Source: Catellatospora methionotrophica (GTDB lineage: Bacteria; Actinomycetota; Actinomycetes; Mycobacteriales; Micromonosporaceae). Taken from it: a stretch of DNA of 64,000 nt. This document shows, piece by piece, positions 27,025 through 36,714 of the stretch. The position numbers and the translations under genes are program-made. The first letter of the stretch is position 1. Each line of letters opens with the position of its first letter. The stretch is from contig NZ_JAAOTJ010000001.1 in NCBI RefSeq assembly GCF_011297335.1, positions 1,240,001-1,304,000 on the forward strand, read 5' to 3'. The notes beneath the pieces were generated by a model. It ran no database searches, was not told the origin of the DNA, and saw only the letters and a list, made by a program, of their open reading frames with translations.

Positions 27025-28170
27025 TTACTCGTTCAGCCCGGTCTTCGGCTGGTCCACGGCCACCCACAGGTCGGTGCTGCCGTCGTCGGCCGGGCTCTCG
27101 ATCACGTGCGTGCCGAATCCGGACCGGGCCAGCGCCCCGAACCGCGCGAACATGTCGGCGAAGCCCGTCATCGCCCGGCGGGCGCCGAGCCAGTGGTTCT
27201 CCCCGTACGCGTGGTACGCGTCGCCGTAGGTGACCCCGTCGGTCAGGGCCAGCAGACCCTGGCCGCGCCCGGCGCGCACCTTCATCACGGCCGCGAAGCT
27301 GACCAGCATCAGGCCGAACACGTTGCCGGCCCAGGTCAGGTTGAACTCGTCGACACCCGGAACCCGGTTGCGGCCGCCGGCGGCGGCGGTGAAGCTCACC
27401 GTCTTGTTCTTCTTGTGGTACGACTGCACCCAGCCCGTGTTGCCGTCCAGCGGATGGTTGGGCGTGGTGCTGGCCAGCCCGCCCCGGTGGATGTGCGTCG
27501 GGGTCTCCAGGATGAACGGGCGGCTGAAGTCGATGTTCGCAGCGCCCAGGCTCAGCAGCCCGAGCGGCGCGCTGTTCGCCGCGATCAGCTTCTCCCGGTG
27601 CGCGATCAGCAGCCGCTCGCCCTCCAGCTCGGCGAGGATGTCGGCGCCGCTGAACGGGTCCTCCAGCGACGGCACCCCGTAGTACGGCAGGTGCGGCACG
27701 GTCCCGCCGGACGGGCAGAACATCGACAGCATCCCCCAGAACGGCGACCACGAGGTGGTGTCCTCGAACTCCTTCTGGAACTCCTCGGGCACCGGCTGCG
27801 GGTAGGTGTGGTTCAGGTAGGCGTGCTCCTTGCCGAGCCGGTTCTTGCGCCGCAGCGCCCAGGTGAATCCGACGAAGTACGGGCTGCGCGGGCGGTAGGA
27901 GCCGTCCTTGGCATTGGACTGCGCCTCGCACGCCTCGGCCAGCTTCGCCATGCCCACCCCGCCCTTGTCGCACATGGCGATCGGCGCGAGCTCGGGCTTG
28001 GCCAGGTCGAAGTCGGCCCCGGTGGTCTCCTTGGCGAGCTTGGTGAACTCGGCCTCGGCGAGGTCGTGCACCGCCACGCCGACGAGCAGGTTGAGCCGCT
28101 CGAGGTTGACCCGGAACGTCATCAGCGCGCGCTGCTTGAGAAGCTCGAACTTGCTCGGGTCTGGTTGCAT
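27025..28170 (-). CDS. Uncharacterised 381-aa cytosolic protein
   Basis: Starts at ATG 28170 with GAGGAACC upstream (MQPDPSKFELLKQRALMTFRVNLERLNLLVGVAVHDLAEAEF). No signal peptide or membrane helix. The N-terminal ~60 residues are helical; the middle is rich in aromatic and Gly/Pro motifs (PRSPYFVGFTWALRRKNRLGKEHAYLNHTYP, TSWSPFWGMLSMFCPSGGTVPHLPYYGVP) and the C-terminus has TDGVTYGDAYHAYGENHWLGARRAM. It looks like a dedicated globular protein, perhaps an encapsulated or cargo-type protein, but I do not recognise the family. Codon use is normal for the window. It stands alone. Confidence 0.7.
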   Translation of the reverse strand: MQPDPSKFELLKQRALMTFRVNLERLNLLVGVAVHDLAEAEFTKLAKETTGADFDLAKPELAPIAMCDKGGVGMAKLAEACEAQSNAKDGSYRPRSPYFVGFTWALRRKNRLGKEHAYLNHTYPQPVPEEFQKEFEDTTSWSPFWGMLSMFCPSGGTVPHLPYYGVPSLEDPFSGADILAELEGERLLIAHREKLIAANSAPLGLLSLGAANIDFSRPFILETPTHIHRGGLASTTPNHPLDGNTGWVQSYHKKNKTVSFTAAAGGRNRVPGVDEFNLTWAGNVFGLMLVSFAAVMKVRAGRGQGLLALTDGVTYGDAYHAYGENHWLGARRAMTGFADMFARFGALARSGFGTHVIESPADDGSTDLWVAVDQPKTGLNE

Positions 28171-28276
28171 TTGGTTCCTCCTCGGGCCACGCGGTCGGGG
28201 GTGACCGCCTACGCCAGAGAAGATGAGCCGGGACCGGCCGCTGATACGGCGGCAGGTGGCGGGCATCGGACAGCGG

Positions 28277-29650
28277 CTAGCGCGTGTCCATGTCGCGCAG
28301 CGCGTCCTCGACGGCCCGGCAGAAGGTGGGGTACGCGTAGATCATGTTCCGCAGCACCGGCAGTGGCGTACGCGCGTGGACGGCCAGCGTGAGCAGCCCC
28401 AGCACCTCGCCACCGGCGGGACCGGCCGACACCGCGCCGACCAGGACGTCCCGGTCGGCGTCGGCGAGCAGCGTGATGAACCCCGCGTTGCCCGCGTGGT
28501 GCAGGAATCCCCGCGCCGACTCCGGGATGCACGCCCGTCCGATGCGTACCCGCAGCCGCTGCTCCTCGGCCTGGGCTCGGGTCAGCCCGACCGCGCCGAT
28601 CTCGGGGTCGACGAACACGCAGCGCGGCACGGCCCGGTAGTCGGCGCGGTCACCGTCCTGGCCGAGCACATCGGCGGCGGCGATGCGCCCCTGGTACGTC
28701 CCGACGTGCGTGAACTGTCCCCGGTCGGTGATGTCGCCGACCGCCCACACCCCGTCGGCGACGCGCAGCCGGTCGTCGGCGTCGAGGCTCTTAGCCTGCG
28801 GGTCGAGCCCGATCGTGTCCAGCCCCAGCTCCCGCAGGTTGGCCTCGCGCCCGGTGGCGACCAGCAGCCGCTGCGAGGTCACGCTCTGCCCGTCGGCGAG
28901 CCGGACCACGAACCCGCCGCCGTACTCGACCCGCTCGGCCTTCACGCCGGTGACCACCCGCACCCCGTCCCCGGCGAGCACGTCCTCGGCGAACGCGGAG
29001 ACCTCCGGGTCCTCGCGGCCGAGCAGCCGGTCCTCGGCCTCGACGACCGTCACCTCCGCGCCGAACCTTCGCAGGACCTGCGCGAACTCCAATCCGACCG
29101 GTCCGCCGCCCAGCACCGTCACCGACCGTGGGACCTCGGTCAGCTCCGCGACGTCCCGGTTGGTCCAGTACGGCGTCCCGGCCAGTCCGTCGATGTCCGG
29201 CACCGCGGGCCGCGTCCCGGTCGCCAGCACGACTGCGCGGGCGCTGAACTCTTCGGTCCCGCCCGACGCGCGGTCGACGACGACCTTCCCCGGCCCGGCG
29301 AGCCTGGCACTGCCCCGGACCAGCCGCACTCCGGCGTCAGTCAGTTCCTCGGCGATCTCGGCGTCGTTCCAGTCGTGGGTGGCCTCGTCGCGGATACGGC
29401 GGGCGACCAGCGACCAGTCCGGGGTGACCGTGGCGGTTCCGGCCAACTGCGGCACCCGGTGCGCCTCGGCCAGCACGTTGCCCGCGCGGACCATCATCTT
29501 CGTCGGCACGCAGGCCCAGTTGTGGCACTCGCCGCCGAGCAGGTGCTCCTCGACGCCCACGACCGTCAGCCCGCCGTCACGCAGCCGGTGGGCGACGTCC
29601 TGACCGGCCACGCCGAGACCGATGACCACCGCGTCCACCTGCTCACCCAT
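28277..29650 (-). CDS. NAD(P)/FAD-dependent pyridine nucleotide-disulfide oxidoreductase
   Basis: 457 residues from ATG 29650. FAD-binding VVIGLGVAGQDVAHRLRDGGLTVVGVE, redox-active GGECHNWACVPTK (two Cys spaced CxxxxC as in the family, with HNWA instead of the usual LNxG), NAD-binding VTVLGGGPVGLEFAQVLRRFGAEVTVVE, and the second FAD motif GVWAVGDITDRGQFTHVG, then a dimerisation domain ending in HARTPLPVLRNMIYAYPTFCRAVEDAL. It resembles mercuric reductase/dihydrolipoyl dehydrogenase relatives but lacks the C-terminal HxxHPTxSE dimer motif of those enzymes (here YAYPTFCRAVED), so the substrate differs. Not part of an operon. Confidence 0.85.
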   Translation of the reverse strand: MGEQVDAVVIGLGVAGQDVAHRLRDGGLTVVGVEEHLLGGECHNWACVPTKMMVRAGNVLAEAHRVPQLAGTATVTPDWSLVARRIRDEATHDWNDAEIAEELTDAGVRLVRGSARLAGPGKVVVDRASGGTEEFSARAVVLATGTRPAVPDIDGLAGTPYWTNRDVAELTEVPRSVTVLGGGPVGLEFAQVLRRFGAEVTVVEAEDRLLGREDPEVSAFAEDVLAGDGVRVVTGVKAERVEYGGGFVVRLADGQSVTSQRLLVATGREANLRELGLDTIGLDPQAKSLDADDRLRVADGVWAVGDITDRGQFTHVGTYQGRIAAADVLGQDGDRADYRAVPRCVFVDPEIGAVGLTRAQAEEQRLRVRIGRACIPESARGFLHHAGNAGFITLLADADRDVLVGAVSAGPAGGEVLGLLTLAVHARTPLPVLRNMIYAYPTFCRAVEDALRDMDTR

Positions 29651-29762
29651 GCACGGACAGTGCCCGAAGGGCCACGGCCGCAAACCCGGCGCGGTTGACA
29701 CCCGGCGGCGGATCCTCTTGTCTGGCTGCCGACATCCAGCGCGGGAAGGACGGAGATCGCCG

Positions 29763-30869
29763 ATGGGACTGCAGGCGCCGCTGTGGCGGGCGGTCACCGT
29801 GTTCCGGGTCGCGGCACTGGTGTACGCCACGGTCCTGATGTTGACCGGTTTCCGTGACTTCACCCGCCCGTGGCTGGGCTGGGCCGTGCTCGCCGCCATG
29901 ATCGCGTGGACCGCCGTCACCGGCGTGCACTACCACGACCCCGCCGGGCGCAACCGCAGCTGGCTGGCGGCCGATCTCGCCTTCACCCTGGCCTGCCTGC
30001 TCGCCTCCATGCTGGTCGTCCCCGCCGCGAAGCTCAGCTCCGGCGGGGCGACGCTGCCGATGGCCTGGGTCGCCGGGGCGGTCCTGGTCTGGGCACTGCG
30101 CGGCGGCCGCCGCGCGGGCGGGATCGCCGCGCTGATCGTCGGCGCGGCCGACCTGTTCCTGCGCGGCGAGATCACCTCCGCGACCGTCAACGGCACGGTG
30201 CTGCTGCTGCTCGCGGGCGGCGTCATGGGATACGTGTCGCGGCTGACCGACGACGCTGAGACCAGACTCCAGCGGGCCGTGGAACTGGAGGCCGCGACCC
30301 GCGAACGCGAGCGCCTGGCGCGCGGCATGCACGACTCCGTCCTGCAGGTGCTCGCCCTGGTGCAGCGACGCGGCACGGAACTGGGCGGCGAGGCCGCCGA
30401 ACTGGGCAGGCTCGCCGGGGAGCAGGAGGCGGTGCTGCGCTCGCTGGTCGGCGTACACGTCACCGCGGCCGTCGCGGGCACCGCCGACCTGCGCCTGCTG
30501 CTGGGCCGGTACGGGTCGCCGCTGGTCACCGTCGCCACCCCGGCGACCCCGGTGCTGCTGCCCGCGGCGGTCGCGGCGGAACTGGCCGCGGCGGCGGGCA
30601 GCGCCCTGGACAACGTCGCCACCCACTGCGGCTCGTCGGCACGGGCCTGGGTGCTGGTCGAACAGGAACCCGACGCGGTCACCGTGTCGATCCGCGACGA
30701 CGGCCCCGGCATCGCACCGGGCCGGCTCGCCGAGGCCGCGACGTCGGGCAGGCTCGGCGTCGCGCAGTCGATCCAGGGCCGCGTCCGCGACCTCGGCGGG
30801 ACCGTCGCCATCACCAGCGGGCCCGGTCAGGGCACCGAGGTGGAACTACGCGTGCCGCTGCCCCGCTAG
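29763..30869 (+). CDS. Sensor histidine kinase (HisKA_3, NarL-partner type)
   Basis: 368 residues from ATG 29763 with GGAAGGACGGAG upstream. Residues 10-165 form about five membrane helices (FRVAALVYATVLMLTGF, WLGWAVLAAMIAWTAV, and others). The dimerisation box ERERLARGMHDSVLQVLALVQRR carries the phospho-acceptor His (MHD). The ATPase domain has N-box sequence SALDNVATHCG, and G boxes RDDGPGIAPGRL and SGPGQGTEVEL. The sensor domain is purely transmembrane, resembling MacS-type kinases. Stop to regulator start is 10 nt, so the pair forms a two-component operon. Confidence 0.92.
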   Translation: MGLQAPLWRAVTVFRVAALVYATVLMLTGFRDFTRPWLGWAVLAAMIAWTAVTGVHYHDPAGRNRSWLAADLAFTLACLLASMLVVPAAKLSSGGATLPMAWVAGAVLVWALRGGRRAGGIAALIVGAADLFLRGEITSATVNGTVLLLLAGGVMGYVSRLTDDAETRLQRAVELEAATRERERLARGMHDSVLQVLALVQRRGTELGGEAAELGRLAGEQEAVLRSLVGVHVTAAVAGTADLRLLLGRYGSPLVTVATPATPVLLPAAVAAELAAAAGSALDNVATHCGSSARAWVLVEQEPDAVTVSIRDDGPGIAPGRLAEAATSGRLGVAQSIQGRVRDLGGTVAITSGPGQGTEVELRVPLPR

Positions 30870-30879
30870 GCTGTCGCCC

Positions 30880-31521
30880 GTGGTGGACGTGATGGTGGTC
30901 GACGACCATCCGATGTGGCGGGACGGCGTGGCCCGTGACCTGACCGACGCCGGTTACCGGGTCGTCGCGGCGGTGGGCGAGGGCGCGCAGGCGGTGCGCA
31001 TCGGCCCGTCGGTGCGGCCCGAGGTGGTCGTGCTCGACCTGCAGTTGCCGGACCTGTCCGGCGTGGAGGTCATCCAGGGGCTGGTCGCGGCCCTGCCGCA
31101 GGTGCGGGTGCTGGTGCTGTCGGCCAGCGGCGAGCAGCAGGACGTGCTCGACGCCGTCAAGGCCGGTGCGGCCGGATACCTGCTCAAGTCGGCCGCGCGG
31201 GAGGAGTTCCTGGACGCGGTGCGGCGCACCGCCGAGGGCGACGCCGTGTTCACGGCCGGGCTCGCTGGCCTGGTGCTGGGCGAGTACCGGCGGCTGGCCG
31301 CCGCGCCCGGCGACGGGGCCGACGCGCCCCGGCTCAGCGAGCGCGAGACCGAGGTGCTGCGCCTGGTCGCCAAGGGCATGACCTACCGGCAGATCGCCGA
31401 ACGCCTCACCCTGTCGCACCGCACCGTGCAGAACCACGTGCAGAACACGCTGGGCAAACTCCAGCTGCACAACCGGGTCGAGCTGGTCCGCTACGCCATC
31501 GAGCAGGGCCTCGACGACTGA
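30880..31521 (+). CDS. NarL/LuxR-family response regulator
   Basis: 213 residues from GTG 30880. Receiver domain: acidic pair in VVDDHP, phospho-acceptor Asp in VVVLDLQLPDLSG, Ser/Thr in VLVLSAS and Lys in GYLLKSA. The C-terminal LuxR helix-turn-helix is LSERETEVLRLVAKGMTYRQIAERLTLSHRTVQNHVQNTLGKL. Cognate partner of the kinase just upstream. Its targets are unknown; the KAS-HDO operon begins 82 bp downstream on the same strand and is a plausible target. Confidence 0.93.
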   Translation: MVDVMVVDDHPMWRDGVARDLTDAGYRVVAAVGEGAQAVRIGPSVRPEVVVLDLQLPDLSGVEVIQGLVAALPQVRVLVLSASGEQQDVLDAVKAGAAGYLLKSAAREEFLDAVRRTAEGDAVFTAGLAGLVLGEYRRLAAAPGDGADAPRLSERETEVLRLVAKGMTYRQIAERLTLSHRTVQNHVQNTLGKLQLHNRVELVRYAIEQGLDD

Positions 31522-31602
31522 CCCGCCGTTGAGTACGCCGCACATCGCGAGTGAGTGTGTGAGCGGATTCGCTTTCACCCCGGACGTGGCTGAATCGGGA
31601 GC

Positions 31603-33534
31603 ATGACTGCTTCCCCGAACGTGTACCTGACCGGTTTCGGCGCCTACCTGCCCGGCGAGCCGCTGGACGCCGACCAGATCGCGCAGCGGCTCGGCGCAGG
31701 CGCACGCGGCGCGGGCCTGCGGTCGCGGGTGCTGGCCGCCAACGGCATCCGGACCAGGCACTACGCGCTCGACGAGCAGGGCGCGGTCACCATGCTCAAC
31801 GAGGAACTGGCCGCGGCCGCCGTGCAGGAGGCGCTCAAGGACCGCGACCTGCCCCTGGACGCGGTCAGCATGCTGGCGGCGGGCACCACCCAGGGCGACC
31901 TGCTGGTGCCGGGCTTCGGTTCGATGGTGCACGGGCGGCTCGGCGGCCCGCCGATGGAGGTGCTGTCGGCGGGCGGGGTGTGCGCGTCGAGCATGACCGC
32001 CCTGGCCGCCGCGGCGCGCGCGGTCCGGCTCGGCGAGCACCCGGCGGCCGTCGTCGTCGGATCGGAGCTGGTCAGCCGCTCGCTGCGGCAGAGCCGGTAC
32101 GAGGGCGACCGGTCGACCTTCGACGCCGAGTTCCTGCGCTGGACGCTGTCCGACGGGGCGGGCGCGGTGGTCCTGGAGCCGAACCCGCGCCCCGACGGGC
32201 TGAGCCTGCGCCTGGACTGGACCCACCTCGTGTCGTACGCCGGGGAGCGGCCGGTGTGCATGTCGGCCGGTGGGGAGCCCGTCGCCGGTCAGACGTGGCT
32301 CGACGGGCCGGACGTGGCGACCGCCGAGCAGGCCGGGCTGATCCGGCTGCGCCAGGACGTGAAGGCGCTGCCCGCGCTGTTCCGGCTCGGGTTGCGCGAG
32401 TACATGGGGCTGGTCCGGGCGGGCCGGTTCACGCCCGACGGCATCGACCACGTGCTGTGCCACTACAGCGCCGAACACTTCCGGGGCGAGATCTTCGGGC
32501 TGCTCCGCGAGGCCGACCTGATGATCGACGAGGAGCGCTGGTTCACCAACCTGCACACGCGCGGCAATACGGGGGCTGCCAGCATCTTCGTGATGCTGGA
32601 GGAGGCGTGGCGGACCGGCCGGTTCACCCCCGGCGACCGCATCCTGCTGATCGTGCCCGAGTCCGGCCGCTACTCGCTCGCGTTCGCGCAGCTCACCTGC
32701 GTCGCCGCGGACGACCCGGCATCCCCGGTGGGCGGCGGCGAGGTGGCGCGCGTCGCGGTCCACGGCGACGCCGCCACGCCACCCGCGGCGCAGCTGACTG
32801 GTGCACTGCCGGGCGCCCGGTCCGCGTCCGTCGGGGGTACGCCGTCGCCGCTGGTCGCACAGGACGGCGACGGTGAACTGGTGCGCTGGACGGTGCTGGA
32901 GCTGGCCAGGGTGTGGGACGACTTCGAACGGCAGGTGCGCTCCACTGCCCTGGTCCGGCGGATCGACACCGGCACGGCGACGCTCGACGACTACCGGCGG
33001 CTGCTGGTGCACCTGCGCCAGCAGGTCGTCGAGGGCGGGCGGTGGATCAGCCGGGCCGCGTCGAACTTCTCCGTCGAGATGTTCGCGCTGCGCAGCGCAG
33101 CGATCAAGCACGCGGCCGAGGAGCACCGCGACTACCAGCTGCTCGAACGCGACTACTGCGCGGTCGGCGGCACGATCGAACAGATCCAGGGCGCGCGCAA
33201 GAACATCGGGTCGGAGGCGCTGTCGGCGTACGTGTTCCACCAGGCGAGCCAGCCGGACCCGGTGGACCTGCTCGGGGCCATGTTCGTCATCGAAGGGCTC
33301 GGCGCGGGACTGGTGCTGGGCTGGGCGCGTGCCCTACGCGAGCAGCTGGGCCTGCGCGAGGACCAGGTGAGCTTCCTCAGCTACCACGGCGACGCCGACG
33401 ACGCGCACTTCGCCGAGCTGGCACACCTGCTGCGCGAGGCGCTGCCCGACCGCGCGGCGGCGGCCCGGGTGGTGCGCACGGCCGAGGTCGTCGCCCGGCT
33501 GTACGCGATGCAGCTCGCCGAGGTCGACGCGTGA
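31603..33534 (+). CDS. Fusion: KAS III-type condensing enzyme / heme-oxygenase-like diiron oxidase (HDO)
   Basis: 643 residues in one uninterrupted frame. Residues 1-375 are a thiolase-fold KAS III (FabH-like) domain: active Cys127 in SAGGVCASSMTA, His287 in LCHYSAEHF, Asn322 in TRGNTGAASIF, and the typical N-terminal YLTGFGAYLPGEP. A disordered, Gly/Ala/Pro linker runs ~376-425. Residues ~428-643 are a heme-oxygenase-like/Haem_oxygenas_2 domain with KHAAEEHRDYQLLERDY, FVIEGLGAGLVLG (Glu564) and SYHGDADDAHFAEL (His595, Asp599, His602), the metal-ligand pattern of HDO enzymes such as UndA. KAS III makes 3-oxoacyl thioesters and HDOs cleave C-C or C-N bonds oxidatively. Acyl chain decarboxylation or tailoring is inference. 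Good ribosome site CGGGAGC. Its stop overlaps the next GTG. Confidence 0.85.
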   Translation: MTASPNVYLTGFGAYLPGEPLDADQIAQRLGAGARGAGLRSRVLAANGIRTRHYALDEQGAVTMLNEELAAAAVQEALKDRDLPLDAVSMLAAGTTQGDLLVPGFGSMVHGRLGGPPMEVLSAGGVCASSMTALAAAARAVRLGEHPAAVVVGSELVSRSLRQSRYEGDRSTFDAEFLRWTLSDGAGAVVLEPNPRPDGLSLRLDWTHLVSYAGERPVCMSAGGEPVAGQTWLDGPDVATAEQAGLIRLRQDVKALPALFRLGLREYMGLVRAGRFTPDGIDHVLCHYSAEHFRGEIFGLLREADLMIDEERWFTNLHTRGNTGAASIFVMLEEAWRTGRFTPGDRILLIVPESGRYSLAFAQLTCVAADDPASPVGGGEVARVAVHGDAATPPAAQLTGALPGARSASVGGTPSPLVAQDGDGELVRWTVLELARVWDDFERQVRSTALVRRIDTGTATLDDYRRLLVHLRQQVVEGGRWISRAASNFSVEMFALRSAAIKHAAEEHRDYQLLERDYCAVGGTIEQIQGARKNIGSEALSAYVFHQASQPDPVDLLGAMFVIEGLGAGLVLGWARALREQLGLREDQVSFLSYHGDADDAHFAELAHLLREALPDRAAAARVVRTAEVVARLYAMQLAEVDA

Positions 33535-34346
33535 ACGGCCCCACCGTGTGGACCGCGATCATGGCCGACCCGACCGTGCCGATCGACCGGGACGTGCTCG
33601 CGATGGTGGTCGCCGACCAGCGGCAGTGGACCCGCCGGTGGCTGTACCCGCCCGCGCGGATCGTGTCGCGGGTCGCGGTGTGGCTGATCCGGGTCGTCAA
33701 GGCGCTGCTGCCGTGGACGTTCTCGGCGCATACGACGATGGATCGGTTGTGTGTCTGGTTCCTGCGCCGGTTCGTCTCGCCGCGCGCCGGTGAGCTGCTG
33801 ATCCGGCACTTCCTCATCGAGACGAACCTGCTGGCGTTCATCGCCCGCAACAGCGCCGTCACCGGGGTCACCGAGCCGGTGCTGCGCCCCACGACCCTGG
33901 CCGGGCTCGGCAACAGTGCGGTCATCGAACACGACGTCAACGTGTACGACGTGCTCATCGCCCTCGGCGCGGGGCGGCGCGGGCCGCGCGGGCCGCTGGA
34001 CTTCTCGATGCTGGCGGTGCCGCCGGTCGACGCGTCACCAGGGTTGCGGCGGCTGCTGCGGCTGGACATCCAGACCGCGCTGTGCCTGATGAACATCCCG
34101 TTCGCGCTGTGCCTGACCAGGGAGGAGTATCGGCGCGCGGTGCACTCGATGCGGCTCGACGAGTCGCTGATGACGGTGCTCGCGGAGCTGACCGGCGACG
34201 ACACGTTCCTGCGCTGGCGGCCGGGCGGGGTCGTGGTCCGCGTCGACAGCGGCCTGGACGTGCCCCGCGCGGTCTACGAGCACGCGGTCGTCCACGAGTA
34301 CGCCCACGCCCGGCTCGTGAACCTGGCGGCCGGTGACCCGGCGTGA
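33531..34346 (+). CDS. Partner protein of the KAS-HDO fusion, membrane-associated
   Basis: 271 residues from GTG 33531, overlapping the KAS-HDO stop (GTGA), which argues for joint action. One amphipathic/hydrophobic segment (residues ~37-60: PARIVSRVAVWLIRVVKALLPW) suggests membrane association. Conserved-looking motifs: RFVSPRAGELLIRHFLIETNLLAFIARN, IEHDVNVYDVLIALG, DIQTALCLMNIPFALCLTREEYRRAVHSMRLDESL. Near the C-terminus is VVHEYAHARL (HExxH), but with only ~12 residues following, a metalloprotease role is not supported. The family is not recognised; helical pattern could suit acyl-substrate handling or an enzyme with a fatty ligand (inference). Confidence 0.75.
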   Translation: MNGPTVWTAIMADPTVPIDRDVLAMVVADQRQWTRRWLYPPARIVSRVAVWLIRVVKALLPWTFSAHTTMDRLCVWFLRRFVSPRAGELLIRHFLIETNLLAFIARNSAVTGVTEPVLRPTTLAGLGNSAVIEHDVNVYDVLIALGAGRRGPRGPLDFSMLAVPPVDASPGLRRLLRLDIQTALCLMNIPFALCLTREEYRRAVHSMRLDESLMTVLAELTGDDTFLRWRPGGVVVRVDSGLDVPRAVYEHAVVHEYAHARLVNLAAGDPA

Positions 34347-34353
34347 TGATGCG

Positions 34354-34383
34354 GGCGCAGGCCGCCGAGGGACGGCCTGCGCC
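34354..34383. terminator. Bidirectional terminator after the KAS-HDO operon
   Basis: GGCGCAGGCCG (34354-34364) pairs perfectly with CGGCCTGCGCC (34373-34383) over an 8-nt loop, between convergent genes. Confidence 0.7.
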
Positions 34384-34390
34384 GGTCGCG

Positions 34391-34870
34391 CTACTCCCGG
34401 TCTGTTGCCGCCTTGGCGAACAGCTCCAGGACGGCACGCCAGTCGCCGCCGCCGACGAGCCCGTCGCGCAGTTCCTGGCCGGCGACGAGACGGTCCAGGT
34501 GGCGGTGTTCCAGCTCGACCGTCGTCTGCTCGGGGCCGTCCTCGGTGAACCGGATCTCGATCTCGCTGGCGTGCGCCGGGTCGGCGTCGTACTGCCAGCT
34601 GCCGTTGATCTGCCAGGTGAGGACGAGGCGGTGCGGCGGCTGCCAGGCGAGGACCCGGCCCCAGTCGCACTCGCTGCCGTCGACGCCGCGCTCGTACCAG
34701 CGGCCGCCTTCGCGTGGCTCGACGACGACCTCGGCCAGGTCCGCCTCGCCGATCTGGTACTGCGCGGGCCACCAGGTGTCGAACGAGGCGGTGAAGAAGT
34801 CGAACGCCCGCGCGGCGGGCAGGGCGACGGTGACCTTCGCGTGCAGGGGCGGGATGGGTGCAGCGGTCAT
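34391..34870 (-). CDS. SRPBCC (AHSA1/START-like) domain protein
   Basis: 159 residues with the AHSA1 pattern: KVTVALPAARAFDFFTASFDTWWPAQYQIG, VEPREGGRWYERGVDGSECDWGRVLAWQPPHRLVLTWQI, and the helical end AVLELFAKAATD. These hydrophobic-cavity proteins bind lipids or drugs, and are often paired with an ArsR regulator. Its ATG at 34870 overlaps the ArsR stop by 1 nt (TGATG), so both are made from the same transcript. Confidence 0.88.
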   Translation of the reverse strand: MTAAPIPPLHAKVTVALPAARAFDFFTASFDTWWPAQYQIGEADLAEVVVEPREGGRWYERGVDGSECDWGRVLAWQPPHRLVLTWQINGSWQYDADPAHASEIEIRFTEDGPEQTTVELEHRHLDRLVAGQELRDGLVGGGDWRAVLELFAKAATDRE

Positions 34871-35199
34871 CAGGACTCCTGTTCGGATGCGGGGGAGGCC
34901 GCTTCGGCGGCCTTCTGGAACGCCGTCAGCGCGTCCTCCCAGACACGGTCGAGGTAGGCGCGCAGCGCGGTCACGCCGTCGGGGTTGAGCTGGTAGACGC
35001 GGCGGGTGCCGTCGGCCCGGCTGACGACCAGGCCACCGTCCTTGAGAACCCGCAGGTGTTGCGACACCGCAGGGCGGCTGACCGGCAGGAGATCGGCCAG
35101 TTCGCCTACCGAACTGGGCCGCCGTGCCAGCAGCTCGAAGATCGCGCGCCGGGTCGGGTCACCCAGCAACCCCAGGCCGCTCTCTCCGTAAGTCTCCAC
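34870..35199 (-). CDS. ArsR-family transcriptional regulator
   Basis: 109 residues using GTG 35199, the first in-frame start downstream of the palindromic operator; upstream starts would place the operator inside coding sequence. Winged helix: LLGDPTRRAIFELLARRPSSVGELADLLPVSRPAVSQHLRVLKDGGLVVSRADGTRRVYQL, then a C-terminal helix DALTAFQKAAE. There is no ArsR-type metal site (no CVC), so it likely belongs to the SRPBCC-linked subgroup. It probably autorepresses through the adjacent 20-bp palindrome. Confidence 0.88.
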   Translation of the reverse strand: METYGESGLGLLGDPTRRAIFELLARRPSSVGELADLLPVSRPAVSQHLRVLKDGGLVVSRADGTRRVYQLNPDGVTALRAYLDRVWEDALTAFQKAAEAASPASEQES

Positions 35200-35202
35200 G
35201 AA

Positions 35203-35222
35203 CGGTAAGTCTAGACTTACCG
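35203..35222. promoter_or_regulatory. ArsR operator, 20-bp perfect palindrome
   Basis: CGGTAAGTCTAGACTTACCG is a perfect 20-bp inverted repeat 3 bp upstream of the ArsR start, with a degenerate half-site (GTAAGTCT) at about 35187-35194. The TAGACT inside can act as a -10, so repressor binding would block the promoter. A dyad this long and perfect immediately upstream of an autoregulated repressor is strong evidence. Confidence 0.75.
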
Positions 35223-35404
35223 AGTTCGGCAACACAACACGCGTGGGCCGACCTCGGCAGCTAAGGCCAGCAGCCCCTTTGCTCACGGCAGCGCGAACGT
35301 GGCCGCTTTAGCTGCGGGCACCCTGCCACGCCGATCGGAGGGCCGCTAGCTCAGCACGGGGGAACGGTCGACCCACGCGGTCCGGTAGCCAGCCGCGCCG
35401 TGGT

Positions 35405-36391
35405 TCAGTGCAGTTCGGCGTTGAGGTGCGGGGTGGTCGCGCCCTCGTAGCCGCGCTGCTCGGTGTAGGTGAGCAGGATGCCCGCGAACTGGAACATCGT
35501 GACCGGCAGCTGGATGACCGCGCTGAGCACGACCGACACGATGGCGCCCATGGTGACCAGCGCGACGCCGTTCACCGTCGGCCCGAAACTCTGGTCGCTG
35601 ACGGCATTGACGACCGCCTCGATGATGGCCTCGATGATCGACACCGCGAACCCGAGCCCGATGGTGATCAGCACGATCAACGCGAGGCGGCCCAGCACCC
35701 GGCCGCCGCTGTTGTGGAGCATCTTGAAGGAGCGGCCGATCGGGTTGATCCGCTCGAACAGGAAGATCGGGCCGACCAGGGCGGTGGCGGCCGTCAGGTA
35801 GATGCCCGGCAGGAGGCAGGCGAGCGCACCCACGAGGATCATCAGGCCGACCGGGATGTACCAGGCGAACAGCCCGAGGCTGCGACGGAAGCCGTAACCC
35901 AGTGACTCACCGATGGTGGCAGGCGTTCCGGCGGCCTGCCGGGTGACGGAGTGGGTCGCGGCGGCGTACCCGGCCAGTTGCAGGATGTAGAGCAGGATGG
36001 CCACGACCACCACCGCGGCGATCAACGGCAGCACCGTCGCGAAGTCGAACTCACCGGTGCCGGTCCCGGTGCCGGTCCCGGCCTCCGGGACCAGGTTCAC
36101 GATCTCCAGGCCGACGTACACCCCGACGAAGATCGCGCCCACCCCGATGACCATGCCGGGCAGCAGCTGGGTGATCGCGAGGATGGTCAGGGTGGACTTC
36201 CAGCTGTGCTGGAACAGGCTGCCGATGCGCTTGAACCAGCCGCCGACGCCGCCGTTGGGGGGCGCGACCAGCGGGTCGTCGTACAGGTCGCCGCCGGGCT
36301 GCACGAACGCCGACTGCGGCGGCAGGTAGCCGCCCGCGGGCGCGTAGGGGGACGGCACGGCGGGGCCGTAGGGGTCGGGCAGCTGGGACAT
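35405..36391 (-). CDS. Polytopic membrane protein, proline-rich N-terminus
   Basis: 328 residues. The first ~50 are Pro/Gly/Tyr-rich and cytosolic, ending with FKRIGSLFQHSWKS. Membrane helices follow near 66-95 (ILAITQLLPGMVIGVGAIFVGV), 120-148, 183-205, 205-225, 242-275 and 283-305, joined by short polar loops. A GTG/GT repeat (TGTGTGTGEF) follows the first helix pair. It matches the general DUF7544/glycerophosphoryl-membrane-domain type of actinobacterial protein, but I cannot assign a function. Confidence 0.75.
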   Translation of the reverse strand: MSQLPDPYGPAVPSPYAPAGGYLPPQSAFVQPGGDLYDDPLVAPPNGGVGGWFKRIGSLFQHSWKSTLTILAITQLLPGMVIGVGAIFVGVYVGLEIVNLVPEAGTGTGTGTGEFDFATVLPLIAAVVVVAILLYILQLAGYAAATHSVTRQAAGTPATIGESLGYGFRRSLGLFAWYIPVGLMILVGALACLLPGIYLTAATALVGPIFLFERINPIGRSFKMLHNSGGRVLGRLALIVLITIGLGFAVSIIEAIIEAVVNAVSDQSFGPTVNGVALVTMGAIVSVVLSAVIQLPVTMFQFAGILLTYTEQRGYEGATTPHLNAELH

Positions 36392-36714
36392 CGAAACTCC
36401 AGGTCGGCGCGGAGGGGCGGCCTAGTGTGCCACGCCCCGGCCAGCCGTATCGCCCCCCTTCCTCGATGACGTGGGCCACCTCGACGACACCTCCGCCTCC
36501 GGGCCGGAGGACATTCGCGCCAGAGGGTGCTCATATCGGGACGCATGAGCGTCCGCATATGAGCACGCCCCGTCAGAGACACCTTCCTGAGAAGGCCTCC
36601 ATCCAGCGGGGCCGGGCCGAACCGTGAACGCGCGCCGCTCGCACGGGCGATAATGATGCGACGCCCCCCGGAACGCGGACCGGCACCAGGTCCGTGCCGA
36701 CGATGGGGGCGATG
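36392..36714. promoter_or_regulatory. Divergent intergenic region with a 40-bp imperfect palindrome
   Basis: This gap lies between the membrane protein gene (minus) and poxB (plus). At 36527-36566, GTGCTCATATCGGGACGC pairs 16 of 18 with GCGTCCGCATATGAGCAC around ATGA, and it contains an inner perfect GGACGC/GCGTCC. Being between divergent starts, it may be an operator or a recombination-type palindrome. Sequences GGAGGACATTC near 36506 and AGAGACACCTTCC near 36572 are present but no confident -35/-10 pair. No ORF looks real here. Confidence 0.5.

Follow-up and report, generated by a model that had tools for sequence, protein, structure and literature searches.

Gene organization of the locus

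The stretch of the Catellatospora methionotrophica genome (8.4 Mb) analysed here, 64,000 nucleotides in length and referred to as the window, contains a gene in which a ketosynthase (KS) is fused to a heme-oxygenase-like dimetal oxidase (HDO) domain, followed on the same strand by a gene for a DUF6999 protein (Table 1). The two open reading frames share 4 nt (GTGA), and both had been placed at the correct coordinates in the initial annotation. The fusion and the coupling of the two genes described there are also borne out: KS III families match residues 6-367 of the first product, PF14518 matches residues 512-634, and DUF6999 adjoins KS-HDO not only through the overlap here but in 46 of 49 named loci.

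Table 1 Features of the KS-HDO-DUF6999 locus, in window coordinates.
Feature	Position	Strand	Evidence
MacS/MacR two-component pair	29622-31521		MacS 463 bits vs cut-off 300
Fused KS-HDO gene, 643 aa	31603..33534	+	ORF and domain matches; KS-HDO pair in 49 named loci
KS domain, residues 6-367	31618..32703	+	NF005293 E 7e-98; StlD 5gk2 Z 50.4; invariant residues
KS Cys127	31981-31983	+	invariant residue
KS Glu155	32065-32067	+	invariant residue
KS His287	32461-32463	+	invariant residue
KS Asn322	32566-32568	+	invariant residue
Linker, residues ~373-424, variable length	32719..32874	+	pLDDT <50 at 373-414; gapped in alignment
HDO domain, residues 425-643	32875..33531	+	PF14518; profile match to HO-fold 3dde_A, E 2e-12
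HDO metal-ligand candidates E477 and, on helix 1, H503, E507, D510	33031, 33109, 33121, 33130	+	invariance in 77 rows
HDO metal-ligand candidates, helices 2-3: E564, H595, D599, H602	33292, 33385, 33397, 33406	+	invariance in 77 rows
DUF6999 partner gene, 271 aa, GTG start	33531..34346	+	PF22523 E 4e-83

The ketosynthase belongs with StlD and DarB

Among the KS III families that match, the best is NF005293 ('StlD/DarB family'), for which the window KS scores 328 bits and stays below the curated cut-off of 450 bits; a fused cyanobacterial homologue (L040) lies above it with 453.6 bits. The Cys-His-Asn triad, previously described as intact, is indeed present as Cys127, His287, and Asn322 and is invariant in the alignment of all 59 cassette KS and all 15 DarB and StlD sequences. 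Glu155 is kept as well and aligns with Glu154 of StlD. By sequence, the closest solved relative is StlD, the isopropylstilbene ketosynthase (PDB 5gk0-5gk2; E 5e-74, 39-40% identity), whose active-site His (H302 in 5gk2) is also conserved in the cassette KS. The predicted KS model fits StlD 5gk2 with an rmsd of 1.9 over 361 residues, while the next family by fold reaches a Z of 39; OleA and PqsD are among these next matches, with OleA 11 Z units below StlD. StlD differs in having no HDO domain and in its operon.

In a maximum likelihood tree of 85 KS, with support given as paired values, the cassette KS, DarB, and StlD form one clade against FabH (100/100). The subclade of DarB and StlD (99/100) leaves out the cassette KS, among which fused and split forms are interleaved. 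Tree and fold together rule out a generic FabH identity, and the window KS is assigned by its sequence to the StlD/DarB superclade, outside the DarB+StlD subclade. The earlier picture, in which a generic KAS III enzyme elongates chains, therefore gives way to one in which the KS sits with ring-forming ketosynthases in tree, fold, and sequence. The product of DarB is a 4-carboxy-2,5-dialkylcyclohexane-1,3-dione, and that of StlD is the styryl analogue (PMC5515871). Since the cassette KS falls outside their subclade, this ring chemistry may not carry over.

A non-canonical putative metal site in the HDO domain

The C-terminal domain matches PF14518 (Haem_oxygenas_2) with E 1e-9 and 38.7 bits against a gathering score of 28.9. 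Its fold is assigned by profile match, as the fold-search list of the full-length model was filled with KS matches. The helix-2 residue E564 and the helix-3 motif H595-x3-D599-x2-H602 are kept in 77 of 77 alignment rows, which include near-duplicates, and these two features are shared with the HDO superfamily (UndA, SznF, AetD, BesC, PolF). His595 thus stands as a metal-ligand candidate, as had been proposed.

The E/H/H/D diiron pattern of the initial annotation needs revision on helix 1, which is non-canonical and reads H503-x3-E507-x2-D510 in all 77 rows. The usual E...H ligand pair is absent there, E507 being followed by D510 and the His lying at 503, whereas stand-alone HDO paralogues in the same profile alignment carry E-x2-H on helix 1 and no His at 503. 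From the alignment, the helix-1 histidine appears to have shifted upstream by two helical turns, with an Asp in its old place. About 85% of HDO groups fit the pattern E-H-X-H-D/E-H, and UndA, CADD, SznF, and BesC show the canonical E-H-E-H-D-H (PMC11363339). The iron ligands of AetD are D76-x2-H79 on helix 1, E140 on helix 2, and H172-x3-E176-x2-H179 on helix 3. Besides helix 1 and the KS fusion, the cassette HDO differs from the superfamily in an additional carboxylate, E/D477, which resembles by spacing alone the seventh carboxylate ligand of SznF and RohS, a mark of non-substrate-triggered HDOs. The HDO-like DtpC of Acinetobacter was considered as a related system and set aside, since the text searched describes it as a katE partner and mentions no KS.

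The DUF6999 partner

The second gene product, formerly taken to be of unknown family, is a clear member of PF22523 DUF6999 (278.9 bits against a gathering score of 27). The family is thus a named one, and what persists of the earlier description is that its function is undescribed: none was found in the open-access literature searched. R92, H93, H134, D135, D179, D210, H251, and E256 are invariant in an alignment of 31 sequences, and the His, Asp, and Glu residues among them (H93, H134-D135, D179, D210, H251, and E256) point to a catalytic or metal-binding site. The predicted model is confident and all-helical (pLDDT 86.4, pTM 0.85). A fold search of the PDB gave no convincing match (best E 0.59 with Foldseek, best Z 3.9 with VIA-align), so no fold relative is named for DUF6999, and this result does not by itself make the fold a new one. 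No transmembrane segment is evident in the window protein on the Kyte-Doolittle scale; its best 19-residue mean is 1.47, and relatives reach up to 1.97. A weak form of the membrane association proposed in the initial annotation is possible.

Distribution and conservation of the cassette

A scan of named genomes yielded 55 loci, 49 of which hold a KS together with an HDO, either fused (39) or split into neighboring genes (10). The split loci belong to Halomonadaceae and relatives, one myxobacterial MAG, and one alphaproteobacterial MAG. DUF6999 follows on the same strand in all but three of the 49, and two of these three end at or near a contig end. The order KS, HDO, DUF6999 is kept in fused and split forms, and KS-HDO retains ~40-90% identity over its whole length across phyla. 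As judged from these sequences, the conservation of KS-HDO and DUF6999 is far beyond chance.

The full set is present in Micromonosporaceae, Acidimicrobiia, Bacteroidota, Acidobacteria, myxobacteria, cyanobacteria, and Proteobacteria. Of 101 relatives sampled within Micromonosporaceae, 19 carry DUF6999, which always adjoins KS-HDO there. DUF6999 is found in one of 198 genomes of the Actinomycetota sample, namely this one, in 6 of 240 of the alphaproteobacterial class sample, in 6 of 229 of the gammaproteobacterial class sample, and in 2 of 198 of the Bacteroidota sample, both among the loci found earlier. Reading of the flanks showed the whole set at five more alphaproteobacterial and three gammaproteobacterial loci. 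One further DUF6999 gene (L105:7889-8947) has neither KS nor HDO and a transposase-like ORF just beyond it, and is possibly a decayed cassette. Such rare and patchy occurrence with constant content is the pattern of a specialised-metabolism unit moving between lineages. Neither a KS-HDO fusion nor the combination of KS, HDO, and DUF6999 is described in the open-access papers searched, nor does the family appear there characterised under a known name, an outcome that the initial annotation had allowed for. The three components are a real and conserved cassette, undescribed as far as the open-access literature goes.

Genes flanking the cassette

The MacRS two-component system adjoins the cassette in the window and is not a conserved part of it. 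The cassette lies directly 3' of MacRS in several Catellatospora and in Rhizocola, and ~2-2.5 kb from it in two other congeners. In a cassette-free congener (G005), MacRS is followed after 36 bp by the counterpart of the window gene at 35396-36456, so window positions 31522-35395 are missing there; in C. sichuanensis (L023) the same flanks enclose just the two cassette genes. Ten of the 12 Micromonosporaceae tested, among them cassette-free ones, have a MacS orthologue, and MacS lies away from the cassette in two genomes (G032 and G049). MacRS is therefore a neighbor and not a demonstrated controller, which speaks against the regulation by the upstream pair suggested at first, and MacRS was rejected as a general regulator of the cassette. 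An AHSA1-domain gene and an ArsR-type regulator stand beside the window cassette (34394-35286, - strand) and are absent from the G005 empty site and from L023. Further away, 27028-28266 (- strand) encodes a 413-aa protein without a Pfam or NCBIfam match.

In other phyla, membrane-type oxidase genes often adjoin the cassette: FA_hydroxylase in Bacteroidota, FA_desaturase in Acidobacteria and Corallococcus, and both in a gammaproteobacterial locus (L103). The natural reading is lipid-chain tailoring. The idea that a conserved membrane enzyme is a constant fourth component was rejected, because its type changes from phylum to phylum and the window copy has none beside it; no desaturase or hydroxylase adjoins the cassette in the window's own genus. 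In Halomonadaceae and two further loci (L062 and L064), a 188-aa His-rich membrane protein without a Pfam match (L056:9435-10001 and equivalents) lies directly 5' of the split cassette and may be a new membrane oxidase replacing the desaturase or hydroxylase. An acyltransferase/AMP-ligase gene (Aas-like) and a DUF2339 membrane protein gene occupy this position in the alphaproteobacterial MAG (L060:3486-8404). Downstream of DUF6999, a hemerythrin-domain gene (Pfam match) follows after 4 nt in Rhizocola (L037:12622-13302), and truncated-globin-like and ferredoxin-like ORFs, judged by eye, follow in Corallococcus (L053:9595-10975); these are in keeping with O2 chemistry. ACP, aminotransferase, and adenylation genes do not recur in the cassette neighborhoods, which agrees with the earlier remark that no ACP gene is adjacent.

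Comparison with the DarB/DarA system

DarB/DarA dialkylresorcinol synthesis resembles the cassette in its KS superclade and triad, its patchy spread across phyla, and its two-gene logic of condensation and ring oxidation. DarA is annotated as a DAR-aromatase (PMC3949708), and CHDs are DAR intermediates. A protein of 303-311 aa adjoins nine of nine Bacteroidota DarB genes and five of six desulfobacterial DarB-like loci. Its sequence start is flavodoxin-like; as no Pfam or NCBIfam model names it, we take it to be DarA from its position and from annotation. No homologue of it was found at any cassette locus. A genome-wide search with one DarA query, which could miss a diverged DarA, found it in all four DarB control genomes and in none of 13 of the 14 cassette genomes, the fourteenth being that of Zobellia (G296), which has a separate DarA-DarB locus. 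From genomic position and this one query, HDO and DUF6999 would thus occupy the place of DarA. The cassette differs further in that its KS lies outside the DarB+StlD subclade and no ACP or aryl-polyene genes are adjacent.

Proposed route and alternatives

Most likely, the cassette produces an oxidised ring-type lipid along an undescribed pathway. Our preferred reading, to which we give somewhat less than an even chance, is an O2-dependent counterpart of the DarB/DarA route with inferred chemistry, in which the KS builds a ring of the dialkyl cyclohexanedione type and HDO with DUF6999 oxidises it. The KS would condense two fatty-acyl-derived thioesters from general ACP or CoA pools, a beta-ketoacyl and an enoyl or acyl unit, to a product of the 2,5-dialkyl-1,3-cyclohexanedione type. 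The HDO domain would take this substrate straight from the KS, and with a dimetal center and O2 it would oxidise the ring, either by dehydrogenation to a resorcinol or by oxygen insertion to a hydroxylated resorcinol or quinone; E/D477, with its SznF/RohS-like spacing, would favor oxygenation. DUF6999 would perform or assist a subsequent step. The membrane-type fatty-acid desaturases or hydroxylases of other phyla would tailor the chains there. The base of this proposal is what can be read from sequence, namely a superclade KS with its triad, relocated HDO helix-1 ligands, an obligate-looking DUF6999, and the absence of DarA; arguments from adjacency and replacement do not establish the order of reactions. 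It retains the initial idea that one protein pairs C-C bond formation with oxidation, the latter likely O2-dependent. Tentatively, we extend it to an undescribed and widespread lipid pathway. Within one fused protein, an HDO whose His is relocated would oxygenate or aromatise a KS-made 1,3-cyclohexanedione in place of the flavodoxin-like DarA, and DUF6999 would be a new enzyme or carrier family.

A linear product seems unlikely to us. Here the KS would form a beta-keto acyl chain in the manner of OleA, FabH, or PqsD, and the HDO would turn it, by oxidative cleavage or decarboxylation in an UndA-like manner, into an olefin, a methyl ketone, or a shortened acid; HDOs that cleave fatty acids to olefins are known (review PMC13108848), the two domains are fused or adjacent, and OleA and PqsD rank among the nearest fold matches after StlD. 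The grouping of the KS with StlD/DarB and not FabH, the distance in fold to OleA, and a metal site unlike that of UndA, CADD, SznF, and BesC (PMC11363339) argue against it. The oxidative cleavage to an olefin, methyl ketone, or nitrile put forward earlier is possible but less well supported; no nitrogen-chemistry gene recurs in the neighborhoods. Quite unlikely, in our estimate, is an action of HDO before or beside condensation, in which it would desaturate or hydroxylate an acyl chain and, with the membrane enzymes of other phyla, supply the enoyl unit to the KS. HDO desaturation and sequential desaturation are on record in the same review, and the recurrent FA_desaturase and FA_hydroxylase genes would fit; however, the absence of DarA or any aromatase would stay unexplained, and DarB enzymes already obtain enoyl thioesters from fatty-acid synthesis.

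We attach little probability to a nitrogen-containing product (nitrile, N-oxide, or isonitrile) arising from an amino-acid- or amine-derived group. The review gives amino acids as substrates of many HDOs, and the 477 carboxylate is spaced as in the N-oxygenases SznF and RohS, but genes for an aminotransferase, adenylation, PLP, or carrier function do not recur next to the cassette. That the cassette merely belongs to a MacRS envelope-stress output, with no separate pathway, is highly improbable and largely refuted: its position 3' of MacRS in several Catellatospora and Rhizocola is outweighed by cassette-free and unlinked MacS, the G005 empty site, and other cassette locations in other genera.

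Under our preferred reading of an O2-dependent DarB/DarA counterpart, the suggested substrate class of cyclic diketones or resorcinols is not among the characterised HDO reactions in the available text of the recent review. The cassette provides a first functional context for DUF6999 and adds a sharply delimited subgroup of HDOs, whose putative metal site is non-canonical. With two or three genes, it could be transferred to a heterologous host for direct detection of its product. In other bacteria, dialkylresorcinols and cyclohexanediones act as antibiotics, as signals, and as components of pigments. An aerobic counterpart would therefore be of interest as a natural-product lead in actinomycetes, myxobacteria, and marine Bacteroidota. 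Pairs of DarA-like and DarB-like genes are also present in Desulfobacteria (L070-L075), a mostly anaerobic group, which suggests O2-independent resorcinol synthesis there as a counterpart to the HDO cassette.
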